IMG/VR virus record: IMGVR_UViG_3300021961_000447 | Coordinates: 1 to 29,078 of that record | Strand: one strand, 5' to 3' | Origin: a virus | Length of the DNA: 29,078 nucleotides | Shown: positions 4,992-27,688 of the stretch, in pieces | How positions within the stretch are numbered: the first letter of the stretch is position 1 | How the letters are laid out: every line of letters starts with the position of its first letter | Position numbers and translations under genes: made by a program | The notes under the pieces: model-generated | Told to the model about the DNA's origin: nothing | Database searches by the model: none | The model's input: only the letters and a program-made list of their open reading frames with translations

Positions 4992-6425
4992 ATGGGATTA
5001 TTTGCAACAGGTGGATCGTTTCCTGCTGGGTTAACGCCTTCACCAACTAAAACACTTTTTTCAGGTAACTACCTTACTTTTGACTCTGGGTCAGGGGGTG
5101 GTACCTTTGCACAACAATTTTTACCAGACGTATACGAAAAGGAAGTTGAGCGTTACGGAAATCGCTCTGTTTCTTCTTTCTTACGCATGGTAGGAGCTGA
5201 AATTCCTTCTGCTTCAGATCAAATCATTTGGTCAGAGCAAGGAAGATTACATATTGCTTATGATGCAGCAGCTGCTAATACTGCAACTGGTGTTATCACT
5301 GAAGCTGGACACGCTGTACGCGTTGGACAAACTGTAGCTATTGCTGAAGGTCTTGTTACCGTTAAAGCTGTAGTTACTGCTGTAGCTACTGACACTTTTA
5401 CTGTAAAACCTTACGGTGGAGCTGATCTTGATGCTGCAGGTCTTTCAACTGGTACTGCTGTAGCTGTAAAAGTATTCGTTTACGGTTCTGAATTTGGAAA
5501 AGGTACTGCTGGAATGGCTGGATCTATTGACGCTGGATTTGAACAATTTAGCAATTCACCTATCATTATTAAAGATAAATATTCTATCTCTGGTTCTGAT
5601 ACTGCACAAATTGGATGGGTTGAAGTTACTACTGAAAACGGTGCTTCTGGTTATCTATGGTATTTAAAATCTGAGCATGAAACAAGACTTCGTTTTGAAG
5701 ATTATCTTGAAATGGCAATGGTAGAAGGTGAATTAGCTGCTGCTGGTTCTGCTGCTCTTGGTTCTGGATATAAAGGTACTGAAGGTCTTTTTGCTGCTAT
5801 TGAAGGTCGTGGAAATATCTATCAAAACTTTAATTCTGGTGAAGGTACGCTTTCTAATGCTGGAGCTGATCGTACTGCATTACAAGATTTTGATGAAATT
5901 CTTAAAAATCTTGACAAGCAAGGAGCTATTGAAGAAAACATGCTTTTCTTAAACAGAGCTACTGCACTTGCATTTGATGATATGTTAGGAGCTGTAAATG
6001 CTCACTATAATGGTGGTACTTCTTACGGAGTATTCAACAACAGTGAGGATATGGCACTTAATTTAGGATTCAGCGGTTTCCGCAGAGGTTCTTATGATTT
6101 CTACAAAACTGACTGGAAATATTTAAATGATGCTGCTACTCGTGGTCTTACTGAAGATATTGATGGTGTACTTGTACCTGCTGGTACTTCAACTGTATAC
6201 GATCAACAATTAGGTAAGAACATTAAGCGTCCTTTCCTACACGTTCGTTACCGCGCTTCTGAAGCTGATGATAGAAAAATGAAATCTTGGATCACTGGAT
6301 CTGTAGGTGGAGTTTATACTTCTGATGTTGATGAAATGAATGTACACTTCTTATCTGAAAGATGTTTGTGTGTACAGGGAGCTAACAACTTTGTATTATT
6401 CAAATCTGTTACTCAGACTGCATAA
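4992..6425 (+). CDS. Major capsid protein
   Basis: A 477-residue protein after the scaffold gene. It begins MGLFATGGSF and contains FLPDVYEKEVERYGNRSV (about 43-60) and a well-ordered alpha/beta C-terminal half, consistent with an HK97-fold capsid protein. Residues about 98-165 are Ala/Val/Gly/Thr-rich and look like an inserted beta-domain exposed on the shell. Codon choice differs from its neighbours: many GCT, GGA and ACT, CGT/CGC used for Arg beside AGA, and more C-ending Tyr, Asn and Phe codons. That is what translational selection on the most abundant virion protein would give. A hairpin terminator follows the stop. The call rests on position, length, codon bias and resemblance to capsid proteins of marine phages as I remember them. 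Confidence 0.85.
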   Translation: MGLFATGGSFPAGLTPSPTKTLFSGNYLTFDSGSGGGTFAQQFLPDVYEKEVERYGNRSVSSFLRMVGAEIPSASDQIIWSEQGRLHIAYDAAAANTATGVITEAGHAVRVGQTVAIAEGLVTVKAVVTAVATDTFTVKPYGGADLDAAGLSTGTAVAVKVFVYGSEFGKGTAGMAGSIDAGFEQFSNSPIIIKDKYSISGSDTAQIGWVEVTTENGASGYLWYLKSEHETRLRFEDYLEMAMVEGELAAAGSAALGSGYKGTEGLFAAIEGRGNIYQNFNSGEGTLSNAGADRTALQDFDEILKNLDKQGAIEENMLFLNRATALAFDDMLGAVNAHYNGGTSYGVFNNSEDMALNLGFSGFRRGSYDFYKTDWKYLNDAATRGLTEDIDGVLVPAGTSTVYDQQLGKNIKRPFLHVRYRASEADDRKMKSWITGSVGGVYTSDVDEMNVHFLSERCLCVQGANNFVLFKSVTQTA

Positions 6426-8927: not shown

Positions 8928-11900
8928 ATGCCGGAAATTAAAAATACTTTTCTTAAGGGAAAAATGAATAAAGACGCAGATGAGCGTATATTGCCATCTG
9001 GAGAATATAAAGACGCTTTAAACATACAGGCTAGCATAAGCGAAAATGGCGATGCAGGAAGCTTACATAATATACCTGGTAATTCCAAATTAAGTAGTAT
9101 TAATATTTCTGGCGCTGAATGTATAGGCAGCATTGCAGATACTGAAAATGATAAAATATATTGGTTTATTTATGGAGCATCTGTTGATGCTATTGCTGAA
9201 TATACTGAATCTACAGGAGTAATTGCTCCAATATTAGTAGACGCATCTAAGTCTATTATAAAATTTCCTACAAATAAAATTACAGCTATAAATATCATAG
9301 AAGGTTATTTAGCATGGACTGATGATAATTCAGAACCAAAAATAATAGATATTGAATTATTTAAAGCTAATTCAAGTAACTTTTCTACAACTACGGTTAT
9401 TTATGATGATATCCTTAATGCAAATAGAAACATTACAGAAAGTGATATAACTTTAATAAAGAAAAAGCCTTTAAATGCACCATCATTAGTTATTAATACT
9501 ACAGGAACTAATGTGCAAAATAATAATGTTGATATTACTGCAACAGGAGATTTTACAGGAATTAATATAGGCAGTACAACAACTATAACATTTTCAGCAG
9601 ACCCTAATTTTACTGCAAATCAAATATTCTATATTGCAGATACATATTATATTAGTGTATTTAAATGTGCATTTGTATCTATAGCGGGTACTACAGTAAC
9701 GGCAGTATTTTTAAAAAATGAAAGTATATTAGGCGGAACTTTAACTTTTACAAATTCAAATGTTAAAGCTGGTGATATAATGTTTGAAGATAAATTTGTA
9801 AGATTTGCTTATAGATGGAAATTTAAAAATAATCAATATTCTGTTATTTCTCCATTTTCAGAAGTTGCATTTAGGCCATATGGAGTTATAGAATATGATT
9901 TTGAAAAAGGCTATAATACCTCAATGCAAAATCAAACTAGATCTATATTACTTGGTGAGATTAATGTTCAAGATACAAATATTGAATCTGTTGATATTTT
10001 ATATAAAGAATCTAATAATACAAATATATACATATACAAAAGTATTAAAAAAGAAGATTTAGATGGATATGGAACAAATTTATTTCCATATATATGTACA
10101 ACTACAATAACAGGAGAAAGTGTTTATAGTGTATTGCCAGAATCTCAATTATTAAGAAGCTATGATAATATTCCATATAAAGCTAAAGCTATGGAAATAT
10201 CAAGCAATAGAATAATATTTGGTAATTATATAGACGGATTAAATATAACTTTAGATTCTAATTCTAATTATCAACCCTATAGCCCTTCATTTAATGTTAG
10301 CATTGTTGGAAGAGGGGCAGCGCCTTTAAATAGATCTATAAAAGCGCATCGTAAATACCAATTAGGTATTGTATTTGAAGATGAATATGGAAGACAAACA
10401 ACTGTATATTCTAATGACAGTGGAATTATAAAAAGCGATTTTCCAAGATTAAATGGATTAACTGATCCAGGAAAAAGAATACAGGTTTCAATGAATGCAT
10501 TACCATTAGGTATAACATTTGATGCCAGAATTAAAACATTTAAATATTTTATTAAAGAAAGTTCTCAAGGTTATTATAATATAGTAATTTATAAAGCTTT
10601 TGATGAAACACCCACTTCTAATTTTTTATGGCTGGTTATACCTAGCTATGAAATAAATAAAGTAAATGAAGAAGATTATATAATATTAAAGAAAAGAGCT
10701 GATAGCGCATTACCTGAAGCGAATCCTTCTTTAAAATATAAAGTTATTAGTATTAAAAGCAGCAAACCAGATAGTATATCTTCAACCGAAAATTTTGATG
10801 GTTATTTTTTCTTAAAAATTGAAAAAGATTCTTTTAATGCTGCTACCGCAGCATCATTAACTCCTTCGTTTACAGGATCTTGGGCGTCTCCAGTTTTTGA
10901 AACAGTACCAGACCAAAATATACTCGATTTATATTATGAGACTGAAGAGTCTTATGATATAGCTGACTATACTATTGCTAAGCAATTAAAATGGTTTAAT
11001 TGTTTTGATTTTGGAAATGGAGTAGAAAGTAATAGAATAAGAGACGATTTTAATGAAAATACAATAGACAATCAAGTCAGAGTATCTGTAGTAGTCGAAG
11101 ACGGTTTTAAAGAAAAAACAAATAAAAGTGGATTAATATTTTCTGGTATTTTTAATTCAAGAAATGGTGTTAACAGGTTAAATGAATTTAATACTGGTGA
11201 AGCTATAACAAAAGAATTAAATAGAGAATACGGAAGTATTCAAAAATTATACGGTAGAGATAATGACCTTATAGCTTTTACTGAAGATAAAATTATAAAA
11301 ATATTAGCCAATAAAGATGCATTATACAATGCTGATGGCAATGTGAATCTAACTGCTACTAATGCAGTATTAGGGCAAGCTATACCGTTTGCAGGTGAAT
11401 TTGGTATATCTAAAAATCCAGAATCATTTGCTAATTATGGTTATCAAATATATTTTACGGATAAAGCAAGAAATGCTGTTTTAAGATTATCACTTGATGG
11501 ATTAACGGTTGTTTCTAATTATGGCATGTCTGACTATTTTAGAGATAAATTTAATCAACAAACATTAGAAGAATCTATATCATTTAGAGAAGAAAATAAT
11601 GGATGGACATCAAGATTAAGTTTTGTACCTGAATCAGGTCTATCATTAAATGGTAAATATTACACATTTAAAAATGGAGAATTATGGAAACATTATAATA
11701 GCGGAAGTAATTATAATAATTTTTATAACACTCAATATGATTCTAAAGTAAAATTTATTTATAATCAAAATCCTTCATCTGTTAAAAATTTTAAAACATT
11801 AGGATATGAAGGTACTGCAAATTGGTCTGCTGATTCAATACAAACAGACAAACAATCTGGTAAAGTATTAACTTTTGTAGAAAAAGAAGGTAAATGGTTT

Positions 11901-13676
11901 AATAATGTACAGGGTACGCAAAAAAGCGTTTCTAATATAGATTCTAAAGATTTTTCAATACAAGGTCTTGGTAATATAACATCATATTCAGGCTCATTAG
12001 TTGATTTGTCATCTACAACTCCAACCCCATCGGAAACATTAATAACACCAAAAAATATTATAGGTACTTATGATATTCATTCAAAACAATATGTATTATC
12101 ATTTGCAAGTGATGTAACCCCTGTACCAACACCCATACCAACGCCTACCCCTACACCCGTTCCAGTTCCGGTTCCTGTGCCTGTAGTACCTAGTCCTGTA
12201 CCTGTACCAGTTCCAGCCCCTGTAGTTGAGCCTACAGCGCCAACAGCTCCTCCTGTAGTTGAGCCCACAGCTCCTACTGCTCCTCCAGTTGCAGAACCAA
12301 CTCCACCTACTGCTCCACCGGTTGTTGAGCCAACCGCTCCAACAGCGCCTGCTCCAGTAGTATTATATTATAAATTAGACGCATGTAACCCTGCGTTAGG
12401 GCAATGTTATACAAGCATTACACCTGTTCTATCCTCTCAAGCTTATATTGACGCTATAACAAGCGACTACTATGTTTGGGATAATGCCGTTGGAACTTCC
12501 TCACCAGGTACATTATGTGGCGGCAGTATTCAAATAGTTAGCGGGCAATCTGGATGTACCCCAACACCAGCCCCAGTACCAGTACCAGTACCTGCACCAA
12601 CAGTAACGTATTATACATTAACATTATACGCTAATGTTTCATCTGGAACAAATCCTTTACAAGGATGGAGCACAAGCACTGATGCGTGTAATGGAACTGG
12701 CACACCCGTAACTGTATATTTAAGCCAAAACGCGTCATCTTTACAAGATGCACATAACAATGGATATGTTTTATATTTAAATAATACTTTAACAACGCCT
12801 TATGCTGGCAATAATACTTATTTCAAAGATGTAAGTAGCGCTGGATCTGGAAATGCATTAACTGTGGATAATAGCGGATCAATTTCAACATTTAGTGCTT
12901 GTTCTTCACCAACGCCCGTTCCAGCACCTGTACCAACACCAGTTGCACCTGTCCCTGCTCCTGTAGCAACACCAGTTTGGAATTTAGCACTTTGTAGCGG
13001 CGGAATTGCAAATCAGCAAATAGCTTATGATGCTAATTTAAGTGTAGGTGTTGTAATAGAAGCCTCAAATGGTATATGTTATACAATAGACAGTTATCAA
13101 GCTAATGGTTCTCCTACACAAACAGTAGTACAAGAATTTGATAATTGTTCAGAATGTCAATCATCCCCAACCCCAACTCCAGTTGCACCAACACCAACAC
13201 CTACTCCTGCACCTGTTGCACCAACCCCATCGCCTGCGCCTAGCCCTGTAGCACCTGTTGCACCAGTGCCATCGCCAGTACCAGCTCCAGTTGCACCAAC
13301 ACCTAGCCCTGTACCAACACCCACAGCACCAGTGCCATCACCTGTACCTGTTCCTGCGCCTACAGCGCCAGTGCCAGTGCCAACTTCACCAACTCCAAGT
13401 CCAACTCCAGCTCCTGTAGCTGCGTCTTGTACCCAATGGTTTGGTAGCGCTAGTACTTACAGCAATTCATCAACTGCTTGCGCATCAACAGATGTAAGCG
13501 CAAGAAGAAGACATAATGGAAGTGGAACAGAGCCAGAAGTTGGAGACACTATTTATACTGAAGCTACTTGTACAACAACATTTAATGGCGGAAATCAATG
13601 GCTATATGTTGGGCCCAGTGGTGCAGCAATACAAGTTAGCTCATCAGGCTCTGTATTACAAAAAGTATATTGTTAA
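8928..13676 (+). CDS. Large tail protein: stabilisation/muzzle-like N-part fused to proline-rich linkers and four Cys-containing domains
   Basis: A 1582-residue protein. The N-terminal motif KGKMNKDADERILPSGEYKD (about 10-29) and the beta-rich chain to about 1060 resemble tail stabilisation or muzzle proteins (P22 gp10-like role) of crAss-like and marine podoviruses. It then changes abruptly. Pro-rich tracts at about 1064-1144, 1210-1226, 1326-1350 and 1413-1499 (Pro alternating with Thr, Val, Ala and Ser) separate four small domains: A (1145-1209), B (1227-1325), C (1351-1412) and D (1500-1582). These hold 4, 2, 4 and 4 cysteines, against only four in the first 1060 residues, suggesting disulfides or metal sites. 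The C-part looks like surface-exposed adhesin or receptor-binding modules on stiff stalks. The downstream hydroxylase and glycosyltransferase make this region a likely modification target. The N-part identity is moderately sure; functions of A-D are unknown. Confidence 0.7.
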   Translation: MPEIKNTFLKGKMNKDADERILPSGEYKDALNIQASISENGDAGSLHNIPGNSKLSSINISGAECIGSIADTENDKIYWFIYGASVDAIAEYTESTGVIAPILVDASKSIIKFPTNKITAINIIEGYLAWTDDNSEPKIIDIELFKANSSNFSTTTVIYDDILNANRNITESDITLIKKKPLNAPSLVINTTGTNVQNNNVDITATGDFTGINIGSTTTITFSADPNFTANQIFYIADTYYISVFKCAFVSIAGTTVTAVFLKNESILGGTLTFTNSNVKAGDIMFEDKFVRFAYRWKFKNNQYSVISPFSEVAFRPYGVIEYDFEKGYNTSMQNQTRSILLGEINVQDTNIESVDILYKESNNTNIYIYKSIKKEDLDGYGTNLFPYICTTTITGESVYSVLPESQLLRSYDNIPYKAKAMEISSNRIIFGNYIDGLNITLDSNSNYQPYSPSFNVSIVGRGAAPLNRSIKAHRKYQLGIVFEDEYGRQTTVYSNDSGIIKSDFPRLNGLTDPGKRIQVSMNALPLGITFDARIKTFKYFIKESSQGYYNIVIYKAFDETPTSNFLWLVIPSYEINKVNEEDYIILKKRADSALPEANPSLKYKVISIKSSKPDSISSTENFDGYFFLKIEKDSFNAATAASLTPSFTGSWASPVFETVPDQNILDLYYETEESYDIADYTIAKQLKWFNCFDFGNGVESNRIRDDFNENTIDNQVRVSVVVEDGFKEKTNKSGLIFSGIFNSRNGVNRLNEFNTGEAITKELNREYGSIQKLYGRDNDLIAFTEDKIIKILANKDALYNADGNVNLTATNAVLGQAIPFAGEFGISKNPESFANYGYQIYFTDKARNAVLRLSLDGLTVVSNYGMSDYFRDKFNQQTLEESISFREENNGWTSRLSFVPESGLSLNGKYYTFKNGELWKHYNSGSNYNNFYNTQYDSKVKFIYNQNPSSVKNFKTLGYEGTANWSADSIQTDKQSGKVLTFVEKEGKWFNNVQGTQKSVSNIDSKDFSIQGLGNITSYSGSLVDLSSTTPTPSETLITPKNIIGTYDIHSKQYVLSFASDVTPVPTPIPTPTPTPVPVPVPVPVVPSPVPVPVPAPVVEPTAPTAPPVVEPTAPTAPPVAEPTPPTAPPVVEPTAPTAPAPVVLYYKLDACNPALGQCYTSITPVLSSQAYIDAITSDYYVWDNAVGTSSPGTLCGGSIQIVSGQSGCTPTPAPVPVPVPAPTVTYYTLTLYANVSSGTNPLQGWSTSTDACNGTGTPVTVYLSQNASSLQDAHNNGYVLYLNNTLTTPYAGNNTYFKDVSSAGSGNALTVDNSGSISTFSACSSPTPVPAPVPTPVAPVPAPVATPVWNLALCSGGIANQQIAYDANLSVGVVIEASNGICYTIDSYQANGSPTQTVVQEFDNCSECQSSPTPTPVAPTPTPTPAPVAPTPSPAPSPVAPVAPVPSPVPAPVAPTPSPVPTPTAPVPSPVPVPAPTAPVPVPTSPTPSPTPAPVAASCTQWFGSASTYSNSSTACASTDVSARRRHNGSGTEPEVGDTIYTEATCTTTFNGGNQWLYVGPSGAAIQVSSSGSVLQKVYC
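12117..12360 (+). repeat. Proline-rich tract 1 of the tail protein
   Basis: About 81 codons dominated by Pro with Thr, Val, Ala and Glu. It begins as Pro-Thr and Pro-Val dipeptides and ends in an 11-residue repeat. Pro codons are mainly CCA, CCT and CCC, and Val codons vary in the third base. Confidence 0.9.
12222..12353 (+). repeat. Four tandem 33-bp repeats
   Basis: Imperfect copies at 12222-12254, 12255-12287, 12288-12320 and 12321-12353 encode VVEPTAPTAPP, VVEPTAPTAPP, VAEPTPPTAPP and VVEPTAPTAPA. The first two copies encode identical peptides with several synonymous differences, so the protein sequence is kept although the DNA has drifted. Confidence 0.9.
12557..12603 (+). repeat. Proline-rich tract 2 of the tail protein
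   Basis: A short linker of about 16 codons reading TPTPAPVPVPVPAPTV, between domains A and B. It has the same alternating Pro pattern as the other tracts. Confidence 0.85.
12903..12975 (+). repeat. Proline-rich tract 3 of the tail protein
   Basis: About 25 codons of alternating Pro with Val, Ala and Thr, separating domain B from domain C. Confidence 0.85.
13165..13425 (+). repeat. Proline-rich tract 4 of the tail protein
   Basis: About 87 codons of Pro alternating with Thr, Val, Ala and Ser, the longest tract, just before the last Cys-containing domain. Ser-Pro and Thr-Pro pairs are frequent, offering many hydroxyl groups for O-glycosylation besides the prolines. Confidence 0.9.
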
Positions 13677-13695: not shown

Positions 13696-14295
13696 ATGAT
13701 ATTAGTAAAAGAGCAAAGAGATTATATACCATATGATCCTTCTCCGCTACAACCAATAACAAGAGCGACTGAAAAAGGTTTTCAAGTTGTAGATGTTCCG
13801 GCAGCTGTGTATAGCATTTTAAGCGAATTTTATGATAGATCTAAAATGCAGGAAGAAAATTATCCAGGAAAAGAACATTATTCAAAGCAAATAAGTTTTT
13901 TACAAGATATTAATCAATATCCAGAAAAAGTGGCATTTATAAAAAATGCTTTATTAGATATACACCAAGAATGGTGCGGAAGGGAACTAAAACCTGCTGT
14001 TGTTTATGGTATTAGAAGCTATAGTAATAATACTGTTTTTAAGGCCCATTTTGATAGACAAGATACTCATCATGTTGCATCAAGTATTACAATGGGTAAA
14101 GATGCACCTTGGAATCTTAATATACAAGATCATGATAAACAATGGTGGGGTGTAGATGTAGAACCTGGGCAAATGATTATGTTTGAATCTGGGTGTTGCA
14201 TGCATGGTAGATTAGACCCATATCAAGGAACTTATTTTGATAATTTATATACACATTATACATACAATGAACCATTTGCACCATACCAAGGATAA
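13696..14295 (+). CDS. 2OG-Fe(II) oxygenase, prolyl 4-hydroxylase-like
   Basis: A 199-residue protein of the size of the catalytic double-stranded beta-helix domain of prolyl 4-hydroxylases. Iron ligands are visible: H118-x-D120 (in AHFDRQDTHH) and the distal H170 (in CCMHGRLDP). The conserved-looking EPGQMIMFES lies just before the distal His, and the domain ends in a LYTHY strand. The usual basic residue that binds 2-oxoglutarate is not obvious; R172 is the nearest candidate. The family uses O2 and 2-oxoglutarate to hydroxylate a substrate, often proline in repetitive peptides. It starts 20 bases after the gene for the proline-rich tail protein, making those tracts the natural substrate guess (inference). 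A small-molecule or lipopolysaccharide substrate is the main alternative. No signal peptide is seen, so it probably acts in the host cytoplasm. Confidence 0.75.
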   Translation: MILVKEQRDYIPYDPSPLQPITRATEKGFQVVDVPAAVYSILSEFYDRSKMQEENYPGKEHYSKQISFLQDINQYPEKVAFIKNALLDIHQEWCGRELKPAVVYGIRSYSNNTVFKAHFDRQDTHHVASSITMGKDAPWNLNIQDHDKQWWGVDVEPGQMIMFESGCCMHGRLDPYQGTYFDNLYTHYTYNEPFAPYQG

Positions 14296-14404
14296 AATAT
14301 ACATATATGAATCACCAGACAATGGAAAATCTATCTATAGACGAGAATTTGGTAATTATTCTGATAGAAAATTAATTGTTTGTAAAAAAAATGAAAGAAA
14401 ATAA
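14267..14404 (+). CDS. Small conserved-looking protein (45 aa)
   Basis: A short frame starting at the ATG at 14267, 29 bases inside the end of the hydroxylase gene, and ending 14 bases inside the glycosyltransferase gene. The core IYIYESPDNGKSIYRREFG is more protein-like than a random frame, and I recall near-identical small proteins (ESPD-GK--YRREFG) in marine phage genomes. It is basic at the C-terminus (VCKKNERK) with no membrane segment. Function is unknown. The ATG is the only standard start in frame, although homologues may begin closer to KIYIYE. Its overlap with both neighbours suggests translational coupling through the cassette. Confidence 0.6.
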   Translation: MNHLHHTKDKIYIYESPDNGKSIYRREFGNYSDRKLIVCKKNERK

Positions 14405-15458
14405 ATATATTTCTTTTGATTGGTGGTGGGGTGGTTTTAATAATATAAGGATGTGTTATGAAATGGTTGGGGCTATGTCATATGTATCTGGAAGAAAAAT
14501 TATTTTACCTCCTCCGGGCTATTGTTTATTTTTAGCTGAGCATCATGATAAAAAAACATTTTGGGATATTTGGGAAATATTAGATAAAAAAGCTTTTACT
14601 GATAATTTTGAATGCGTAGAATATAAAGACACTGAACTTATAAAATATTCTTCTGATCAGCAGAATTATGACGGCATATGCAAAGATATAAAATGCATAA
14701 TGTTTAATGATGAAGATAAAAATTGGGGGCCACAAAATTTTATTGGGAGATCACTAATATATCATAGCATAGAAAACATAAATCATTTTAATCAATTTAA
14801 TTGCGATAATAGGGATTTTTTGTATAATATAATGTCTGACGATAAAATAATACATTTTCCTAGAAATTTATTTGGGCATTTTGGATATCACGTATATCCC
14901 CCAAATGATATAGCCCGCAAAATAATACAAGAAAAAGTAAAAAACGGTGTTAAATTTAAACAAGAGTTTTTTTTACAAGCTAATAAATTAATGCCCGGTG
15001 ATTATGATGCTGTTCATATAAGAAGGGGTGATTTTAAATTTACACAAACAAAATGGACGGAAGATTTATATTCAAATCTTGAGCAATTATTGGATGGTAA
15101 AGTTAGAAATTCTGTGCCTTTATATATAGCCACAGATGAACAAGACTTATCATTATTTAATTTTTTAAAGAAAAAATACAATATAATTTTTTTAAAAGAT
15201 TTAATACAGGAAAGCAAAAGCAAAGAATTAGTTTTAGATACTATAATATGTGCAAATGCTTATAATTTTTTTGGTTCAAGAATGTCTACTTATAGTGATT
15301 ATATAAATATAATTAGAGGGTATAATAATAAAATAGACAACCATAGAGAGTCTTTAAATTTTAATAGAAATAAAATACAATACAATAAATACCCATGGGA
15401 AGTAGAGGCTTATAGCTGGCATGATTTATGGGGAGAATTATATTATGGAAAAATTTAA
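14391..15458 (+). CDS. Glycosyltransferase, protein O-fucosyltransferase-like
   Basis: A 355-residue protein; I use the ATG at 14391 rather than the TTG at 14376. It carries the three marks of the fucosyltransferase superfamily with GT-B fold: an N-terminal GGFNNIRM (14-21) followed by RKIILPPP (35-42), the nucleotide-sugar motif HIRRGDF (209-215), and a C-terminal GSRMSTYSDYI (about 295-305). The N-terminal pattern is closer to GDP-fucose protein O-fucosyltransferases than to GT11 enzymes, which hints at a protein acceptor. Donor and acceptor cannot be read from sequence. It overlaps the small upstream gene by 14 bases and the carbamoyltransferase by 14 bases. Position next to a Ser/Thr/Pro-rich tail protein suggests virion glycosylation (inference); host surface modification is the alternative. 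Confidence 0.7.
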   Translation: MKENKYISFDWWWGGFNNIRMCYEMVGAMSYVSGRKIILPPPGYCLFLAEHHDKKTFWDIWEILDKKAFTDNFECVEYKDTELIKYSSDQQNYDGICKDIKCIMFNDEDKNWGPQNFIGRSLIYHSIENINHFNQFNCDNRDFLYNIMSDDKIIHFPRNLFGHFGYHVYPPNDIARKIIQEKVKNGVKFKQEFFLQANKLMPGDYDAVHIRRGDFKFTQTKWTEDLYSNLEQLLDGKVRNSVPLYIATDEQDLSLFNFLKKKYNIIFLKDLIQESKSKELVLDTIICANAYNFFGSRMSTYSDYINIIRGYNNKIDNHRESLNFNRNKIQYNKYPWEVEAYSWHDLWGELYYGKI

Positions 15459-16905
15459 TTTAGGAGTACACGGCTCACATAACTCTACAATAGTCATATC
15501 TTATGGCGGAACAATACTTGAGGCTATAGAACTTGAAAGATGGGTTAAAATAAAAAATGCTGCATTTTTTTATTATCATCCAATACCAAACCCAATAGAA
15601 GTATTGAACGAAATATTAGATTATTTTGAATCTAAATACAATGTAAAAGAATATGATTACGCTATGATAAACTCATGGCCACAAGATCAAACAAAGCATT
15701 TAAGAGCTAAAAATATTATTCATGTACCTCATCATGATGCCCATGCATATAATGTAATGTACCATTCAGAAGCACAAGAATCATTAATCATTTCTTTTGA
15801 TGGCGGATCTGATAATGGGCATTTTAATATATATTTAGGTAGCAAAGGAAGTCCATTGCAACTAATACATCAATCACAAAAAGATTTGTGTGTACCATAT
15901 GCTGCATTAGGGCACTATATAAATGACATAAATAAAGAAAAAGATTATTGGGTTGGAAATTTAACCTATGCTGGAAAAATAATGGGGTTGTCCGCTTATG
16001 GTGAAAGAGACTATAAACTTTTTGAATATGTTACAGAACTTTATAATAGGAGTAATACTAATGAAGTAGGTGTTGCTCATAAAAATTGGGCTGATATATT
16101 TTGTAGTTGTAATCAATTTGATGATAATGCTAAAAATTTAGCATATGCAGCGCAATATATGTTTGAAAAAAACTTTGCTGATATAGTAATGCCTTTTATA
16201 TTTCAATATCCAAATAGAGAATTACAATTTACAGGTGGTGGGGCAATGAATATATTAAATAATTCTATTTATAAATCTTTTGTTTCGCCAAATGCAGATG
16301 ATAGAGGTATTGCATTGGGCTGTTTATTAAGTTTAATTAAACCACAAAATCCAATAGATAGTGCATATTTAGGCTCTGAGCCTTATGATAATATGCCAGA
16401 AGCAAAAAATATATCTATAAAAGAAATATCAGATATGTTATCTAATGATAAAATAATTGGTATTATACAAGGCAGAGCAGAATATAGTGCAAGGGCTTTA
16501 GGCAACAGATCTATATTATGTGCCCCAAAAGCTGGTGTAAAAGAAAGACTTAATTCGGAAGTTAAGCGCAGAGAATGGTTTAGGCCATTTGCTGCTATTT
16601 GCAGAGAAGAAGAGGCTTATAAGTATTTTAAAACTTTTGGTAAACATAAATGGATGACACATAACGTTAAAGTTATAGATAAAAGTTTTCCAGGTATTAC
16701 GCATGTAGATGGCACTTGCAGATTACAAACCGTAACTAAAGACCAAAATAAATTTATATATGATTTATTAGAATATCATCCGGTTTTATTAAATACTTCT
16801 TTTAATATTCAAGGGAAACCAATATTAAATACTTACAAAGAAGCTTTATGGATGAAAAAAAATACAGGAATAGATGAAGTTATAACCGATAAATATATAT
16901 TATAA
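15445..16905 (+). CDS. Carbamoyltransferase, NodU/CmcH family
   Basis: A 486-residue protein starting MEKFNLGVHG (ATG at 15445; the ATG at 15421 would lengthen the overlap). The N-terminal Kae1-like domain has the metal-binding HHDAHA (96-101) and SFDGGSDNG (117-125), and the C-terminal YrdC-like domain has GRAEYSARALGNRSIL (343-358), KRREWFRPFA (374-383) and LNTSFNIQGKP (449-459). These are the classic signatures of enzymes that make a carbamoyl-adenylate from carbamoyl phosphate and ATP and move the carbamoyl group to a hydroxyl, usually on a sugar or antibiotic. The usual GPRALG reads SARALG here, a variation whose effect is unknown. Following a glycosyltransferase, it most likely carbamoylates the added sugar (inference). 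Its stop overlaps the next start as TAATG. Confidence 0.9.
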   Translation: MEKFNLGVHGSHNSTIVISYGGTILEAIELERWVKIKNAAFFYYHPIPNPIEVLNEILDYFESKYNVKEYDYAMINSWPQDQTKHLRAKNIIHVPHHDAHAYNVMYHSEAQESLIISFDGGSDNGHFNIYLGSKGSPLQLIHQSQKDLCVPYAALGHYINDINKEKDYWVGNLTYAGKIMGLSAYGERDYKLFEYVTELYNRSNTNEVGVAHKNWADIFCSCNQFDDNAKNLAYAAQYMFEKNFADIVMPFIFQYPNRELQFTGGGAMNILNNSIYKSFVSPNADDRGIALGCLLSLIKPQNPIDSAYLGSEPYDNMPEAKNISIKEISDMLSNDKIIGIIQGRAEYSARALGNRSILCAPKAGVKERLNSEVKRREWFRPFAAICREEEAYKYFKTFGKHKWMTHNVKVIDKSFPGITHVDGTCRLQTVTKDQNKFIYDLLEYHPVLLNTSFNIQGKPILNTYKEALWMKKNTGIDEVITDKYIL

Positions 16906-17450
16906 TGTTAAGAAAAATAAAATTAAATTATGATTGGAGTTACTTTTTACCTCCAATGCAAGACTACTCAATACATAAAGGAACATGTTTAGCACATCAA
17001 TTACACGAGCTTACTGATATACATGAAGAATACGGACTTGGAGAAACTTTAACTAAAGATAATACTGTAATACAACAGCTTTGGTATACAGACAAACAAG
17101 TTGATTTTGAAGAATTAGGTAAGCAAACAGGTATGGAAGTTGTTACAATATCAAGTATTTTACAACCCCCTGGTAATACCATTGCTTTACACAGAGATAC
17201 TTTTTATCAAATAAATAAAAAATTTCCTAATGATAAAAGATTAAAGGTTAGAGCTAATATATATCTTGAAGACTGGAAAGTGGGGCATATGCTACAATAT
17301 AAATCAGAAGAAGATAATATTTGGAAAACATCTGACAACTGGAAGGCTGGCGATGGGTATATATGGGATTCAAAACCATTGCATTTATCTGCTAATGCGG
17401 GCATGAAAGATAAATTTACACTACAAATTTCAGGATTCTTATTACAATAG
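16905..17450 (+). CDS. 2OG-Fe(II) oxygenase-like (second hydroxylase)
   Basis: A 181-residue protein unrelated by eye to the first oxygenase. It has H96-R-D98 (in IALHRDTFY) and a distal H160 (in KPLHLSANAG), with K170 exactly ten residues later in the position that usually binds the 2-oxoglutarate carboxylate. The compact beta-helix layout and the HRD motif resemble aspartyl/asparaginyl hydroxylase-like and cupin oxygenases. The substrate is unknown; candidates are the tail protein, the sugar attached by the cassette, or a host metabolite. Its ATG overlaps the carbamoyltransferase stop by one base, tying it to the cassette. I recall similar proteins in marine phages without assigned function. 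Confidence 0.65.
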   Translation: MLRKIKLNYDWSYFLPPMQDYSIHKGTCLAHQLHELTDIHEEYGLGETLTKDNTVIQQLWYTDKQVDFEELGKQTGMEVVTISSILQPPGNTIALHRDTFYQINKKFPNDKRLKVRANIYLEDWKVGHMLQYKSEEDNIWKTSDNWKAGDGYIWDSKPLHLSANAGMKDKFTLQISGFLLQ

Positions 17451-17496: not shown

Positions 17497-17814
17497 ATGA
17501 GTCAAATAACACTAAATACTAGTTTTAATAAAAACGCATCTTTGCAGATTGGTGATATTATTTATTATAATGACAACGGAACTGTAAAAAGAATAGGCCC
17601 TGTTGATGAAATAAATACCGGCTCTATTGTATGTACTATTGACGGTGATGCAACTGGCTTATTACCAACATCTTTTATATTTTTTGGTAAAGACAGTCAA
17701 ATAAACACATCTGGCTTAATAGGTTATTATGCCGAAGTAGAATTTAAGAACGAATCAACTTCTGAAGCTGAAATATTTGCAGTTAGTTCAGAAGTATTTT
17801 TAAGCAGTAATTAA
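17497..17814 (+). CDS. Small beta-rich protein, probably structural
   Basis: A 105-residue protein starting MSQITLNTSFNKNASLQIGD. It contains GDIIYYNDNG (19-28), IGPVDEINTG (33-42) and GLIGYYAEVEF (about 73-83), a pattern of short strands with Gly/Asn turns. I recall proteins of this type in the tail or ejection region of marine phages but know no function. It has no catalytic motif, signal peptide or membrane segment. It lies 46 bases after the enzyme cassette and one base before the first ejection-type protein, so it most likely belongs to the virion. It has no Shine-Dalgarno sequence. Confidence 0.55.
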   Translation: MSQITLNTSFNKNASLQIGDIIYYNDNGTVKRIGPVDEINTGSIVCTIDGDATGLLPTSFIFFGKDSQINTSGLIGYYAEVEFKNESTSEAEIFAVSSEVFLSSN

Positions 17815-19973: not shown

Positions 19974-22900
19974 ATGTTTGAATTTAACGGAATGCCTATT
20001 ACTTTAGAGCAAGTAGAAGAATCAGCAAAAGAATCCAATATGGATATTGATTCTTATATTAAAAAAGCAGAAAAAGATGGCTTAATTGATAAAAGAAAGC
20101 CCATAGAATTGGGAAAGTCAACTCCCACAACACCGGGTGCGGTTGTGGAGAAAACTGCAGCACCCGTTATGGATTCCAAGCCGGAAAATGGTTCATTGGA
20201 ATATACAGAAATTGAACCTTTTAAAGAATTTCAACAAAAAAAATCAATAATAACAGAAGAAGGCCAAATAGAATTAAGACAAGCTGGGGATGGCGAATTC
20301 CAACCAATTGAATTAAAAGAAGTTGTAGTAACAGGAAAAGATAAAACAAAAATAGCGGAAGCTAGAAATAGAGATATTCGTATAAAAAATATAGCTGCTA
20401 CTACTAATATTCCAAAAACAGCTATTTCTATGTCTGCAGGAATTGCGGCCACTACAATTGATATTTTAGGTGGTTTTATGAATTTAATTGATAAATATGG
20501 TGTAGCCCCTGTTAATTATGCAATTGGAAAATCTTTGGGATATGATACAACATTAAGGGCTGAGGTTGATGCTAGCATTGAAAATTATGAAGTATTTGAA
20601 AATGTAAGTAATTTACTTAGGCAATATACTATAAAAAAATATGATAAAGAAGGGAATGAGCAAGATACATTTTCTTTAATAGAGCAAGGAAATTATATAG
20701 ATGCAGCTGAATTAGCTTTTAACGAAGGCTTTAGTGCCGCACCTTATTTAGCTTTAAGTATTGCGAGCCCTGTTTATGGTAGTGCATTAATAGGGTCTTC
20801 AGTTACAGGGCAAGAAGTACAAAGAGCTTTGAAAGAAAGACCAGAAGCTACTTTAGAAGAAATATACGGGGCATCTGCCGCTAAGGGGGGAGTGGAATTT
20901 TTCACTAATATGATTGGCGGAGGTATGCAAAGAGGGATTTTAGGTATTGGTAAAAAATTAGGGGTAGGTACTAATGCTTATAAAGAAGCTGTTGATATTT
21001 ATACTAAAACATATTTAGGTAAAGTAGCTGATGCTGGAATAGGATTAACTAGGGGGGGTATTACTAATTTTATTGAAGAATGGTCTGCTTCAATGGGTAG
21101 TGCTATTGTTGATAGCGCTGTATATAATGACCCTTTTGAATTTAAGTCTGCAAATAGACAAGCGATAAACGAAGGGTTAATAGGTTTAGCTTTAGGTTCT
21201 CCTGTTGGTAGTTTAGGAGCGTTTAATTCTATTGCATCAAAACAACAAGCATTAGAATTCCTTGCTCCAAAACAATGGAATATAGAGTTGTCTAAGCAAA
21301 ATAGAAGGCTTGAAGAAGCAAAATTTGATTTAAATAATGCTCCTGAAAATAGAAAAGAAAAATTTCAAAAAAGAGTTCAAAAAATTGAATCTCTTATTAA
21401 AATGAAAAAACAGCAATTGCAAGATTCTTTTGATAATTTAACTAAAAAGGAAAAAAAGCAATATGCAAATAATTTAAATAAATCAGCAGAATCTATAGCT
21501 CAAATTGGAAATTCTAAATATACTTTAGCCGCTCAAGAAATAGCTAAAAAAGATTTTAATGAAGCTAATAAGCAAAATGAAATATTAGTAGGAAAAGAAA
21601 TATTTGATGCGGATATTGAAAAAAATATTAGTAAGACTTTAAAAAATACAGAGCGCATTGAAGAAGCTTTTCAAAAAGCGAAGCAAGAAGTAAAAAATGT
21701 AAAATTTGAATATATATCTGATATTCAAGCAGATTTTGATGCTCGTTTTGATCCAAATACGAATACAGTAACTATAAATAAACCTATTGCTCTTAAAACT
21801 GAACAGACTAATGTTATAGGCCACGAGTTATTACATTATATGATAGCTCAAAAATTTGCTACAGATAATGCTTCTATGCAGCCTTTAGTAGATAGTTTTA
21901 AAGATTATTTAAAAGAAACTCAACCTGAAATATATCAAAGAATACAAGAACGTATTGATATAAACTATACGGATGATGATGGGAATATAAGAAGCGGAGC
22001 ATTAGAAGAATATTTTAATATTTTTTCTGATCTTATTTCTAAAGAAAAAATTATTGTTAATGAGCCTGTAGCAGATAAAATTAAAAATTCAACTACCAGA
22101 TTTTTAAATGGTTTAGGATTTGGCTCTGTTAAATTAGAAACAGGTAAAGATGTATTTAATTTTATACGAAATTATCAAAAAAATATATCTGAATTTAAAT
22201 TTAAGCAATTAGGAGTAGATTTAAAATCTTCAAAAATACCTCAAGCTGTACAACAAGAAATACAACAATCAAAAGAATCAATATCAGGGGATCAAATACA
22301 AAAAGTATTTGATGAAAAAGGAAAAGATGGCGCTTTTGATATTATACAAGCTTATAAACCACTTACCTCTAAATTAACTAATAAATATAAAAATGTTCCT
22401 GGTTTTGACTTTGAATTACTTCAAAGCGAAATTGAAATTGGGAAACGCGGCTTATTAGACCTTATTAATGCTTATGACCCATCTAAAGGAGCTACGCTTA
22501 ATACATATATACAAGGACAATTAGCAAATAGATCTATTGAAGCTGCTAATCGTATATTAGATACTGATTTTAAATTAGATGTAACTGAAGCTAAAGGTAT
22601 TACAGATACAACTACAGAAGAAATTACAGAAGATGTTATAGAAAAACCATCTGAAAAATTACAAAGTTTACGCAAAAAAATGAATATTGGTGATGAAATT
22701 AAACCAGTTGTTTTTGATGCGGTAAGAAAAACTTTTGGAACAAAATTACCTAGCGTTACAGAAAAAGCATTTAAAATTGAATTAGAAAAAAGTTTTAGAA
22801 CAGAACTCAAAAAGCCAATTGCAAAATTAATGGGAAGAACAGAAGATTACAGATCTTTCCTTTCTAATAATTTTGAAGCTATATATGATGCATTACCGCA

Positions 22901-25900
22901 ATCTATAATAAATAAAAGGCTTGCTGAATTTGCAGAACCTGTTATGAAAGATGGTAAACAGGTTAGAGAAAAAACAGCAGAAGGTAATAAAGTATTTACT
23001 AAAAAGAAAATAAGTAAAGCTGAATGGATTAAATATTTTTTAGGAAGTGAAGTTGGAAGATCAACTCAAGGTACTAGAAAAACTGCTTTAGCGGAAGCGT
23101 TGTCAGAAGCACTTGGTTTAGACGCTACAATGGAAGTATTATCTGATCCGGCTATTATGCAAAAAGCAATGGATATTGCAGAATTACAAGGAATTGAATT
23201 AACAGATAATTTTGTAGACAAGGTAAGTAGCATAATTGGCAGACCTATTAATTTTAAATTTAGCAAAGCTAGAACAGCATTAAATCTTCCTGCAGGAGCT
23301 ATAGATTTTAAAAATAAAAGCCAGGTATTATCTGCTAGAAAAGCAATGCTTGAATTAGCAAAAATATTAGGACCTGAAAAAGCGGTTCAATATTTATTGC
23401 CTACTGTACAAGGGGGATGGGGTAGTATTGGTGGAAAATTTATACCAGAAAAAGATATAAATAAATTAATTGTAAAAGAATTAGAAGATCCAAATGATAA
23501 AAATTCTTTTAGAACAAATCAATTTTTATTTATTGGAAGAGCGGATTTTTTTGAAGAAGCTAAAAAAATATTTAATAGTGTAGAATATAAAAAACGAAAA
23601 AGATTTGTTAATATAAATGGGGAAGAAATACCAATATTAGCAGTTCCTAAGCAAACTCCAAAAGGATTTACTAGTGGAAAATTTGAAGGAAAACAATTAG
23701 AAAATAGATTGTATTTTGCTCGAACACAAAGAGAAGGATTAGAAAAAATTATAGACTCTATAAAAGAATTATACACAAATAATCAAATTACAAAAAATGA
23801 TGTAGGTATGATTTTAGCTACATTTAATTCTAGTATAAATGCTTTAATTAGGACTGCAGCTTATCCAGGTCTTCAATTTAAAATTGATGGATTAAAAGAT
23901 GGGGATTATAGATATGAGCACACACAAACAGCATCTGATACTTTAACCGATTTAGCTAAATATATAACTATAAAAGATTATAAATTTACATTTAATGATA
24001 TTATGCAAGGATTTAGAGTAGCTATAATACCTAAATCTTATGATAAAATTGTAAATTCTACTGGTTTTAAAAGTAATGGCCCAAGAGATACAAATGGAGA
24101 TTTAATAAAAGGTAGAAGTACAAATGTAATAAGATATAATCAAAAAGAAGTTATTGAAATTTTTGAAAATGAAAATTTACCTAAATTAGAATTAGAAGAT
24201 TTATTAACAGAAAATTTAATAGTAAAACCTTCTAAATCGTTAAATAAAAAATTAAGAGTATTTGATTTTGATGATACATTGGCAAAATCTAAATCTAATG
24301 TATTATATACTATGCCTAATGGTACTAAAGGAAAATTAAATGCTGAACAATTTGCAAAACAAGGTGATGATTTACTGCAGCAAGGCGCTGAATTTGATTT
24401 TTCTGAATTTTCAAAAGTTATTGAAGGACAAAAAGGACCAATGTTTGATGTAGCAAAAGCTATATTAGATAAAAGAGGTGATGAAGATTTATTTATATTA
24501 ACCGCAAGGCCAGCTGAAGCTAAATATGCAATACAACCTTTTTTAGAGGGTTTAGGATTGCCATTTAGACTAGAAAATATAATTGGTTTAGGAAACGGTT
24601 CACCACAAGCAAAAGCTGACTGGATTGCTTCTAAATTGAATTTAGGATATAATGATGTGTATTTTGCTGATGATGCTTTAAAAAATGTACAAGCCGTGGC
24701 TAAAACATTGTCTGCGTATGACATAAAATACAGGTCACAAGCCGTAAAAGCCTCTAAATCATTAGATACTGAATTTAATAAAATATTACAAGAATCTACA
24801 GGTGTTGAATTTTATAAAGAATATTCACCTGTTAAAGCAGAGCTTTTAGGAAGAGGTAAAGGCAAATTTAAATTTTTTGTACCTTATGATGCTGATGATT
24901 TTGTAGGTTTGCTATACACAACTTTAGCTAAAGGCAAATCCGGTGACGCTCAAATGGAATGGTATAAAGAAAATTTACTTAAACCATTTTCTCGTGGTAT
25001 TCAACAATATGAAGCCGCTAAACAAAGAGCACTTAGAGATTGGGCGGATTTAAAAGCGCAAATTAAAAAAGATGTTCCTGCTGGTTTAAATAAACAAAAT
25101 GAAACCGGATTTAGAAATCAAGATTCTGTACGTGTATATATTTGGCATACTCAAGGCGCTGATATGACATCAAAAGAAATGGGTATGAGTAAATCTGATT
25201 TAAATGATAATTTAAAATATATTCGAAACAATCCAGCATTAAAAGCTTTTGCAGATAAATTAATGGCTTTAAATGTTGATGGGTATCCTGATCCTACAAC
25301 AAATTGGACAGCTGGTGATATTACAACTGATCTTGTTTCTTATATTAATGATGTAAAAAGAAAAGAATATTTACAACCATGGAAAGATAATATTGATATA
25401 ATATTTTCTGATAAAAATAAAAACAAACTTAAAGCATTATATGGCAATAGCTATATAGAATCATTAGATGACATGCTTTATAGAATGTGGAATGGCAGAA
25501 ACAGAAGAGTTGGTATTACTAAAAAAGAAAGAGCATTTCAAGATTGGATAAATAATTCTGTTGGAACTGTAATGTTCTTTAACTCTCGTTCTGCATTACT
25601 ACAAACTATATCAGCAATTAACTTTATTAATTTTACAGACAATAATCCAATTAATGCAGCCGCGGCTTTTGCTAATCAAAAACAATATTGGACTGACTTT
25701 TCTGAATTATTTAACTCTGACTTTTTAAAGCAAAGAAGATCCGGATTACAAATAGATATTAATGCTGATGAAATTGCTAGTGCAGCGGCTACTTCAAGAA
25801 ATAAAGCTAAAGCAGCATTAAGTGCAATACTTAAATTTGGATTTACACCAACACAAATCGCTGACTCATTTGCTATTGCTTCTGGTGGTGCAACATTTTA

Positions 25901-26786
25901 TCGAAATAGAATAAAAAAATATTTAAAAGAAGGATTAACACAAGAAGAAGCACAAAAGAAAGCATTTGAAGATTTTCAAGAAACAGCTGAAGAATCACAA
26001 CAATCTGCAAGACCCGATAGAATTTCAATGCAGCAAGCTAGTTCTTTAGGCAGAACTATTCTAGCTTGGGGTAATACACCAATGCAATATGCTCGCATAC
26101 AAAAGAAGGCTGCACTAGATTTAATTAATGGAAGAGGCGATTGGAAGACAAATGTTAGTAAGATTATGTATTATGGCGTAATACAGAATATTATATTCTC
26201 TGCTTTGCAACAAGGAATGTTTGCTTTATTGTTTTCTGATGAAGAAGATGAAAAAGAAAAAGAAAGATATTTTAGAGTTGGGAACTCAATGCTTGATACA
26301 TTTTTGCGTGGAGCTGGTATTTATGGCGCAGTTGCATCAACAGCAAAGAATGTAATAATGGAAATAATTGATCAGGCTAAATCAAGTCGTCCTGATTATA
26401 CACAAGCAGCAATTGCGGCAACTACAATTTCACCTCCTGTAAATTCTAAATTACGTAAATTAATATCAGCTGGTAAAACTTTTACTTACAAGCAATCAAA
26501 AGAAAAAGTATTCACTGAAGGATTTAGTTTAGAAAATCCAGCATTTTTAGCAGGTGGGCAAGTAATATCTGCTGTAGCAAATATACCTGTTGATAGAATT
26601 GTACAAAAAGCAGATCATATTTATACTGCTATGAAACCTGAAACTGAATTATGGCAATCAATAGCTCTATCATTAGGATGGTCTGAATGGGATCTAAATA
26701 TGATTGAAAAACAAACTAAAAAACCGTCAACTATATACAAAACATCTAAATCAAGAGGATCAAGAAAATCAAGAAATACAAGATGA
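19974..26786 (+). CDS. Giant internal virion protein with zincin-like, sigma-region-2-like and HAD-phosphatase-like segments
   Basis: A 2270-residue protein, the largest in the window. Order of parts: short N-terminal helix; a Pro/Thr linker (about 43-75) with richer GC; hydrophobic segments (about 149-173, 254-280 and 305-420); coiled coil (about 430-600); a zincin motif H617-E-L-L-H621 with a possible third ligand E678 or E679; a helical stretch (790-862) resembling sigma-70 region 2 (NAYDPSKGATLNTYI around Y834-I846); a HAD domain with FDFDDT (1430-1435), LTARP (about 1509-1513), K1547 and FADDA (1564-1568); and a long helical C-terminus with a hydrophobic stretch near 2065-2090 and a basic end. 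Size and position fit the large internal virion protein injected with the DNA (T7 gp16 position). Which enzymatic parts are active is unknown. Confidence 0.7.
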   Translation: MFEFNGMPITLEQVEESAKESNMDIDSYIKKAEKDGLIDKRKPIELGKSTPTTPGAVVEKTAAPVMDSKPENGSLEYTEIEPFKEFQQKKSIITEEGQIELRQAGDGEFQPIELKEVVVTGKDKTKIAEARNRDIRIKNIAATTNIPKTAISMSAGIAATTIDILGGFMNLIDKYGVAPVNYAIGKSLGYDTTLRAEVDASIENYEVFENVSNLLRQYTIKKYDKEGNEQDTFSLIEQGNYIDAAELAFNEGFSAAPYLALSIASPVYGSALIGSSVTGQEVQRALKERPEATLEEIYGASAAKGGVEFFTNMIGGGMQRGILGIGKKLGVGTNAYKEAVDIYTKTYLGKVADAGIGLTRGGITNFIEEWSASMGSAIVDSAVYNDPFEFKSANRQAINEGLIGLALGSPVGSLGAFNSIASKQQALEFLAPKQWNIELSKQNRRLEEAKFDLNNAPENRKEKFQKRVQKIESLIKMKKQQLQDSFDNLTKKEKKQYANNLNKSAESIAQIGNSKYTLAAQEIAKKDFNEANKQNEILVGKEIFDADIEKNISKTLKNTERIEEAFQKAKQEVKNVKFEYISDIQADFDARFDPNTNTVTINKPIALKTEQTNVIGHELLHYMIAQKFATDNASMQPLVDSFKDYLKETQPEIYQRIQERIDINYTDDDGNIRSGALEEYFNIFSDLISKEKIIVNEPVADKIKNSTTRFLNGLGFGSVKLETGKDVFNFIRNYQKNISEFKFKQLGVDLKSSKIPQAVQQEIQQSKESISGDQIQKVFDEKGKDGAFDIIQAYKPLTSKLTNKYKNVPGFDFELLQSEIEIGKRGLLDLINAYDPSKGATLNTYIQGQLANRSIEAANRILDTDFKLDVTEAKGITDTTTEEITEDVIEKPSEKLQSLRKKMNIGDEIKPVVFDAVRKTFGTKLPSVTEKAFKIELEKSFRTELKKPIAKLMGRTEDYRSFLSNNFEAIYDALPQSIINKRLAEFAEPVMKDGKQVREKTAEGNKVFTKKKISKAEWIKYFLGSEVGRSTQGTRKTALAEALSEALGLDATMEVLSDPAIMQKAMDIAELQGIELTDNFVDKVSSIIGRPINFKFSKARTALNLPAGAIDFKNKSQVLSARKAMLELAKILGPEKAVQYLLPTVQGGWGSIGGKFIPEKDINKLIVKELEDPNDKNSFRTNQFLFIGRADFFEEAKKIFNSVEYKKRKRFVNINGEEIPILAVPKQTPKGFTSGKFEGKQLENRLYFARTQREGLEKIIDSIKELYTNNQITKNDVGMILATFNSSINALIRTAAYPGLQFKIDGLKDGDYRYEHTQTASDTLTDLAKYITIKDYKFTFNDIMQGFRVAIIPKSYDKIVNSTGFKSNGPRDTNGDLIKGRSTNVIRYNQKEVIEIFENENLPKLELEDLLTENLIVKPSKSLNKKLRVFDFDDTLAKSKSNVLYTMPNGTKGKLNAEQFAKQGDDLLQQGAEFDFSEFSKVIEGQKGPMFDVAKAILDKRGDEDLFILTARPAEAKYAIQPFLEGLGLPFRLENIIGLGNGSPQAKADWIASKLNLGYNDVYFADDALKNVQAVAKTLSAYDIKYRSQAVKASKSLDTEFNKILQESTGVEFYKEYSPVKAELLGRGKGKFKFFVPYDADDFVGLLYTTLAKGKSGDAQMEWYKENLLKPFSRGIQQYEAAKQRALRDWADLKAQIKKDVPAGLNKQNETGFRNQDSVRVYIWHTQGADMTSKEMGMSKSDLNDNLKYIRNNPALKAFADKLMALNVDGYPDPTTNWTAGDITTDLVSYINDVKRKEYLQPWKDNIDIIFSDKNKNKLKALYGNSYIESLDDMLYRMWNGRNRRVGITKKERAFQDWINNSVGTVMFFNSRSALLQTISAINFINFTDNNPINAAAAFANQKQYWTDFSELFNSDFLKQRRSGLQIDINADEIASAAATSRNKAKAALSAILKFGFTPTQIADSFAIASGGATFYRNRIKKYLKEGLTQEEAQKKAFEDFQETAEESQQSARPDRISMQQASSLGRTILAWGNTPMQYARIQKKAALDLINGRGDWKTNVSKIMYYGVIQNIIFSALQQGMFALLFSDEEDEKEKERYFRVGNSMLDTFLRGAGIYGAVASTAKNVIMEIIDQAKSSRPDYTQAAIAATTISPPVNSKLRKLISAGKTFTYKQSKEKVFTEGFSLENPAFLAGGQVISAVANIPVDRIVQKADHIYTAMKPETELWQSIALSLGWSEWDLNMIEKQTKKPSTIYKTSKSRGSRKSRNTR

Positions 26787-27657: not shown

Positions 27658-27688
27658 AAAAAGGGGCCGCAAAGCCCCTTAATTTTTT
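27656..27688. terminator. Bidirectional terminator between convergent genes
   Basis: AAGGGGC (27661-27667) pairs with GCCCCTT (27674-27680) around a 6-base loop. There is an A-run on the left (27656-27662) and TTTTTT on the right (27683-27688). Read on the + strand it ends the late operon; read on the - strand the A-run becomes the T-tract and ends the reductase transcript. It overlaps the stop codons of both flanking genes. Confidence 0.85.

Follow-up and report, generated by a model that had tools for sequence, protein, structure and literature searches.

A muzzle gene with a modular C-terminal extension

The DNA analyzed here, hereafter called the window, is a stretch of 29,078 nucleotides (positions 1 to 29,078 of the viral record IMGVR_UViG_3300021961_000447). 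Its plus strand carries at positions 8928–13676 an open reading frame (ORF) of 1582 aa, and genes for a terminase, a portal, a major virion protein and two tail-type structural proteins lie 5′ of it, so that the gene sits in an ordinary structural block of a crAss-like phage. The body of the encoded protein matched phrog_14478 over its length (E = 2.1e-114), and a crAss_MUZ_C domain (PF25729) was found at residues 928–995 (positions 11709–11912; E = 6.8e-11). By tblastn, the relatives of the body were structural proteins of Cellulophaga phi38:1 and of the Maribacter Panino, Tenacibaculum Gundel and Flavobacterium elemo phages. Based on the MUZ_C domain and the full-length muzzle homology, the ORF was assigned to the Crassvirales muzzle (tail-tip) proteins. 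The muzzle of crAss001 is a tail-tip hexamer whose length varies by insertion, and crAss001 is the only phage for which this hexamer is known (PMC10172136). The window protein is similar to the crAss001 muzzle gp44 in body homology, MUZ_C domain and position behind ring-type tail genes, but it adds behind MUZ_C an extension of 520 residues made of Pro-rich stalks and Cys modules, which is missing in most relatives examined. The initial annotation had taken the first 1060 or so residues as a conserved tail or muzzle body with only four Cys. The homology confirmed this, with Cys at residues 65, 247, 390 and 692, and the body/tail boundary seen in relatives placed the end of the conserved body near residue 1020.

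Four Pro-rich stalks alternate with four modules in the C-terminal part, all on the plus strand. Stalk 1 (residues 1064–1145; 12117–12362), which contains a 33-bp tandem repeat at 12219–12350, precedes module M1 (residues 1146–1210; 12363–12557), which was supported by a hidden Markov model (HMM), homologs and Cys parity and has four Cys (1153, 1160, 1197 and 1210). Behind stalk 2 (residues 1211–1226; 12558–12605) lies M2 (residues 1230–1325; 12615–12902), which has two Cys (1254 and 1325), was recognized by HMM and is predicted to be folded. Stalk 3 (residues 1326–1350; 12903–12977) leads to M3 (residues 1351–1410; 12978–13157), an HMM-defined module with a C...C...CxxC pattern (Cys 1356, 1384, 1407 and 1410), and stalk 4 (residues 1411–1499; 13158–13424), with tandem repeats at 13182–13297, leads to the terminal M4 (residues 1500–1582; 13425–13673), which has Cys 1501, 1518, 1548 and 1582 and was supported by phrog_21885 (8.6e-11) and an HMM. 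These positions agree with the alternation of four Pro tracts and modules of 4, 2, 4 and 4 Cys proposed earlier. Of the 98 prolines in the C-terminal part, 89 fall in the 238 tract residues versus 9 in the other 284, which indicates that the alternation does not occur by chance. The residue before a stalk proline was Ala, Val, Thr or Ser in 80 of the 89 cases, and the stalks thus contain the clustered, noncontiguous X-Pro (X = A, S, T, V) used as a criterion for AGP-like sequences. AP-, VP-, TP- and SP-type dipeptides are those of plant AGPs (PMC4908140, PMC9854139).

Support for the proposal that even Cys counts mark disulfide-bonded modules differed from module to module. Among the domains homologous to M1, 49 of 50 had 2 or 4 Cys, and the paired loss of Cys among these homologs supports a disulfide in M1. 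The four Cys of M3 were invariant in 136 of 141 homologous domains, the other five being truncated. Cross-hits of the HMMs indicated that M2 and M4 are homologous, and odd Cys counts were common in domains of M4 and of a related module, M5. The evidence for an even-Cys rule is therefore strong for M1 and M3, moderate for M2, and weak for M4 and M5, and the four Cys of M3, which include a CxxC pair, might coordinate zinc rather than pair as disulfides. The accompanying suggestion that disulfides would be unusual in an intracellularly assembled virion does not hold, because the crAss001 virion has them in its tail barrel and hubs (PMC10172136). The modules had also been described as compact domains. 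AlphaFold agreed for M2, which was modeled at pLDDT 85–93, whereas M1 and M3 remained below 50 with a shallow alignment. Foldseek found no match for the M2 model, the only good module model, and no module matched Pfam, so that a known ligand-binding family was not found there. Sequence matches of the C-terminal part in the PDB were dropped as compositional, since they lay on the Pro tracts (best 6ncl) or were weak. The modules probably bind the cell surface; this role stays an inference, because no Pfam family or PDB fold matched any of them.

Exchange of modules among relatives

Among 80 muzzle relatives, the sequence beyond the aligned body spanned roughly 1 to over 1100 residues and contained 0–44 Cys. 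In locus L002, whose body is 97% identical to that of the window, an extra module M5 stands before M1 and the stalks are shorter or longer, with the shared modules nearly identical. The L003 protein (body 85% identical) carries Thr/Pro stalks and two M6 modules, and the L004 protein (59%) ends after the body, with a Pro linker on a separate ORF. This comparison bears out the earlier expectation that modules are swapped while the body is conserved, and it shows domain shuffling, by which the C-terminal part evolves independently of the muzzle body. In L003, MUZ_C was located in a separate downstream ORF (14427–15176), where it is followed, in the same ORF, by a domain that the window encodes as a 105-aa ORF at 17497–17814 on the plus strand (phrog_18548, 4.5e-10), the downstream edge of its accessory island. 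In L123, MUZ_C lies behind an M1–Pro-linker region. The accessory island can thus interrupt the muzzle gene between the body and MUZ_C.

The module HMMs matched muzzles, standalone stalk proteins and, in another type of phage, a phrog_38559 protein; the modules followed each other in many different orders and were up to 88% identical between different carriers. Homologs of M1 were found in L090, L091 and L121–L124, and as standalone genes of about 146 aa in L127–L144. In the clear cases, the modules were carried by muzzles, by standalone proteins whose genes adjoin a muzzle gene, or by tail genes in other types of phage; the same C-terminal part on non-tail proteins, which would speak against a tail array, was not seen among them. 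No tblastn match of the C-terminal part alone was obtained in 50,697 cultured phage records, nor was a typical module protein found in cultured phages. These data bear on whether the C-terminal part is mainly a disordered, low-complexity extension that has no binding function and whose stalks vary by repeat slippage. The tandem repeats in the stalk DNA and the low pLDDT of M1 and M3, obtained with a shallow alignment, would fit such an extension, but the confident prediction of a folded M2, the strict Cys patterns in 50 M1 and 141 M3 domains and the high identity of modules across carriers argue against it, and we give it hardly any weight. A mobile display array, in which Cys modules on long Pro-rich stalks are fused to a crAss-like muzzle, is the reading that we prefer for the C-terminal part.

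Variable repeated modules also occur on crAss-like tail proteins as the BACON domains of crAssphage; these differ from the modules described here in domain type and in gene, and neither Pro stalks nor an oxygenase linkage is reported there (PMC10136315). A second kind of Cys array, consisting of tandem GCTDPxAxNYDPxATxDDGSC repeats, was noticed at the same muzzle position in other crAss-like phages (L021, L042, L050, L052, L058, L065, L069, L073 and L080). In L140, a standalone M1 gene (5764–6198) lies beside a gene for a 1919-aa protein that looks collagen-like, judged from shifted-frame repeats, and glycosyltransferase-looking genes are close by.

An oxygenase gene linked to the stalks

The enzyme cassette that adjoins the muzzle gene had been missed in the initial annotation and is the most informative feature of the locus. 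Its first gene (13696–14295, plus strand) encodes a 199-aa 2OG-Fe(II) oxygenase of the prolyl-hydroxylase type, as judged from the conserved motif, an AlphaFold2 model and Foldseek. The HxD...H metal triad and the basic 2OG-binding residue are present as H118, D120, H170 and R172; among 39 homologs, H118, H170 and R172 were invariant and D120 nearly so. The model (pLDDT 87, pTM 0.84) has a predicted double-stranded β-helix fold that is closest to prolyl hydroxylases: the top Foldseek match was the Dictyostelium prolyl hydroxylase 6t8m (3.6e-7), followed by the Pseudomonas putida prolyl 4-hydroxylase (P4H; 4iw3, 4j25) and human PHD2, all with moderate TM scores of 0.46–0.58, and EctD and AlkB-like 2OG oxygenases matched as well. 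The window enzyme corresponds to the C-terminal domain of a two-domain P4H family. In its relatives the N-terminal half is a procollagen-type prolyl 4-hydroxylase (PDB 5iax, 2.4e-34), and this canonical N-terminal P4H domain is missing in the window; the two-domain oxygenase as a whole was not found in cultured phages. An assignment as ferrochelatase, from weak matches to phrog_2954, was rejected because motif and fold are those of a 2OG oxygenase. The cyanophage S-SM1 record and the PHROGs entry phrog_2954 label the oxygenase family "ferrochelatase," apparently a misannotation.

Viral contigs were then queried with the oxygenase family, blind to stalks and modules; more than 474 loci matched, of which the best 80 were analyzed. 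In this set, a Pro stalk was encoded by the gene immediately upstream of the oxygenase at 64 of 73 loci and by the gene immediately downstream at 4 of 75, and most exceptions were genes cut at contig ends. The asymmetry was maintained after the oxygenases of these best 80 loci were clustered, at 70% identity (upstream 10/10 vs. downstream 0/10) as well as at 80% identity (23/24 vs. 1/25), and the module families M1–M5 of the window occurred in 68 of the 73 upstream genes. When loci were instead selected by the muzzle, the oxygenase was found in 2 of 3 loci with Pro/Thr stalks and in none of the 77 without, numbers that are small and phylogenetically close; the exception is L003, where stalks are present and the oxygenase is absent. 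Among bacterial relatives of the oxygenase, a stalk gene was adjacent in 1 of 64 loci. L246, on a Gammaproteobacteria MAG contig, is one of few genome-collection loci that combine the oxygenase with GT60, an O-FucT-like gene and a Pro-linker gene; the contig may be that of a phage and have been binned with bacterial DNA.

This linkage could have another origin, in which the array is a modular adhesin only, the oxygenase and the other enzymes are accessory genes that modify glycans of the host surface, for superinfection exclusion, or act elsewhere, and their placement reflects the muzzle junction being a tolerated insertion site. Accessory genes do gather at the muzzle junction in several relatives, and enzymes of the O-FucT, carbamoyltransferase, epimerase and radical SAM kinds can work in a variety of pathways. 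However, the oxygenase–stalk pairing was also found behind the tape-measure gene of siphovirus-type contigs (L173–L176; phrog_991, 1e-70) and behind phrog_38559 proteins, and it is thus not confined to the muzzle junction. The complete lack of oxygenase genes in the stalk-less muzzle loci likewise speaks against an accessory-gene origin, as does the obligatory pairing of the oxygenase with an HPAT-like gene described below. We therefore consider this origin unlikely, while giving it real weight, and favor enzymes that act on the virion itself.

Downstream of the window oxygenase, all on the plus strand, lie genes for an O-fucosyltransferase (O-FucT)-like glycosyltransferase (14376–15458; PF10250, 1.2e-9, 38.7 bits against a cutoff of 31.5), a NodU/Nol-like carbamoyltransferase (15421–16905; PF16861, 2.2e-45; phrog_1601, 6.3e-96) and a 181-aa protein of family PH (16905–17450), possibly a second 2OG oxygenase of the PhyH-like kind, whose relative in L158 matched PF05721 below the cutoff (E = 0.002). 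The same order of oxygenase, O-FucT, carbamoyltransferase and 181-aa protein occurs in L219, and it equals that of L158-type loci minus their GT60 gene. Glycosyltransferase genes usually follow the oxygenase: among the six genes behind it, in 75 loci from the 80 best-matching of more than 474, Gly_transf_sug-type genes were counted 29 times, HPAT-related genes 22, GT60/PF11397 genes 19, O-FucT genes 10 and carbamoyltransferases 7, and the O-FucT-like family of the window recurs in oxygenase-linked loci. GT60 (3.1e-35 in L147) was found in L158-type loci and was absent from the window and from its 65-kb sister record. HPAT is the plant hydroxyproline arabinosyltransferase (PMC4908140). GT60 includes the GlcNAc-transferase that modifies hydroxyproline in Skp1 once the prolyl hydroxylase PhyA has acted, as well as a polypeptide GlcNAc-transferase of Trypanosoma cruzi (PMC6939170). 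Of the phage HPAT-related sequences, 9 of 21 matched the HPAT profile (best E = 1.4e-7). No HPAT-like gene occurs in the window or was found in cultured phages, but a search with the HPAT-related family returned 41 other viral loci that carry one. The oxygenase was immediately upstream in 38 of these 41 loci and the other three start at a contig end, so that all 38 informative loci show the pair; the partners include single-domain oxygenases of the window type (L326, L330 and L334). In six loci (L342–L347), the oxygenase, an HPAT-like glycosyltransferase and GT60 stand in tandem, with no stalk gene detected within reach. A radical SAM/SPASM gene follows the oxygenase in eight loci (L178, 1674–2579, and relatives), with GT60 next in several, which suggests that some cassettes include an additional modification step.

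The substrate could also be the modules instead of the stalks. In animals, O-FucT-type enzymes glycosylate folded disulfide modules (EGF/TSR), and here an O-FucT would do the same while the 2OG oxygenase could β-hydroxylate Asp or Asn in the modules. The only clear glycosyltransferase of the window is indeed O-FucT-like, and linkage to the oxygenase is no looser for the module families than for the stalks (68/73, best 80 of more than 474 loci). Nevertheless, fold and N-terminal homology indicate prolyl hydroxylases, and L334 retains the oxygenase and the HPAT-like glycosyltransferase with long TP stalks and with modules outside the M1–M5 HMMs, so modification of the modules appears quite improbable to us. 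Modification of the stalks is the reading pursued below.

A candidate pathway for sugar-coated tail stalks

We propose, with a probability of roughly 0.6, that the phage cassette hydroxylates and glycosylates its own tail stalks, and that the resulting array displays binding modules. The display array and the genes behind the muzzle would form one cassette, in which the adjacent prolyl-hydroxylase-type oxygenase would hydroxylate prolines of the Ala/Val/Thr/Ser-Pro stalks and the glycosyltransferases, in the window the O-FucT-like one, would attach O-linked sugars to the hydroxyprolines or to neighboring Ser/Thr; the NodU-like enzyme perhaps carbamoylates the sugar in the window cassette. A sugar-coated stalk would be stiff, extended and protease resistant and would keep the exchangeable modules away from the tail tip. 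The data show the array, the exchange of modules, the family and fold of the enzyme, and the genetic linkage, whereas both modifications, the stalk mechanics and binding by the modules are inferred. Against the proposal stand the lack of GT60 and HPAT-like genes and of the canonical N-terminal P4H domain in the window, the moderate TM scores and the matches to other 2OG oxygenases, the six loci L342–L347 with enzymes but no detected stalk gene, the stalks of L003, which go without an oxygenase, and the modules' lack of a match to known ligand-binding families. The Thr-rich stalks of L003, with no oxygenase and with a glycosyltransferase gene adjacent, would fit direct glycosylation of Thr.

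Two eukaryotic pathways are comparable. The protist Skp1 pathway (PhyA and Gnt1 of GT60; PMC6939170) likewise places a prolyl-hydroxylase-type enzyme before glycosyltransferases, the best fold match of the window oxygenase is a Dictyostelium enzyme, and GT60 occurs in cassette relatives; however, a single Pro of Skp1 is modified there instead of a repetitive virion stalk, and the window has other glycosyltransferases in place of GT60. Plant AGPs and extensins, with P4H and HPAT, share the AP/VP/TP/SP repeats, the P4H-type enzyme and, in many relatives of the window, an HPAT-related glycosyltransferase, but the present case concerns a bacterial virus with no secretory pathway and with no HPAT-like gene in the window, and the two are alike by function only. 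Virus-encoded P4H is already known: Chlorella virus PBCV-1 encodes one, with evidence for hydroxyproline in viral proteins (Eriksson et al. 1999, as cited in PMC9301287), and in viruses of Baltic Sea water, P4H (P4HA) is among the most abundant accessory genes, its viral use being said to remain "cryptic" (PMC9301287). PBCV-1 shares with the window a virus-encoded P4H and differs in being a virus of eukaryotic algae. To our knowledge, its P4H is not part of a stalk–P4H–glycosyltransferase cassette. A search of the open-licence literature for phage together with hydroxyproline, HPAT, prolyl hydroxylase or glycosyltransferase returned nothing relevant beyond PMC9301287. Hydroxyproline-glycoprotein pathways are thus known in plants and protists, and a phage tail-stalk cassette appears to be undescribed.

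The linkage names a concrete substrate for viral P4H, the Pro stalk encoded by the next gene, together with partner enzymes. There is, in our estimate, an even chance that a transferable pathway for hydroxyproline glycoproteins is encoded by tailed phages in the sea and in other waters, made of a stalk protein, a two- or single-domain prolyl hydroxylase, and HPAT-like, GT60 or other glycosyltransferases, which sugar-coats stalks bearing exchangeable host-contact modules. If so, it would be a bacterial-virus counterpart of plant extensins and AGPs and would explain the abundance of prolyl 4-hydroxylase among viral accessory genes. Phages would then make glycosylated tail stalks by a plant/protist pathway. 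This would matter for how hosts are recognized, how modules are exchanged and how stable the virion is, and it would offer simple bacterial sources of hydroxyproline glycosyltransferases.

Two further ORFs were noted in the rest of the window. A late-block ORF of 2270 aa (19974–26786), with a weak polynucleotide-kinase-like stretch (phrog_415, residues 1421–1586), probably encodes a virion cargo protein, and on the opposite strand the window ends in what looks, from its sequence alone, like a fragment of a ribonucleotide reductase large subunit (27687–29078, minus strand).
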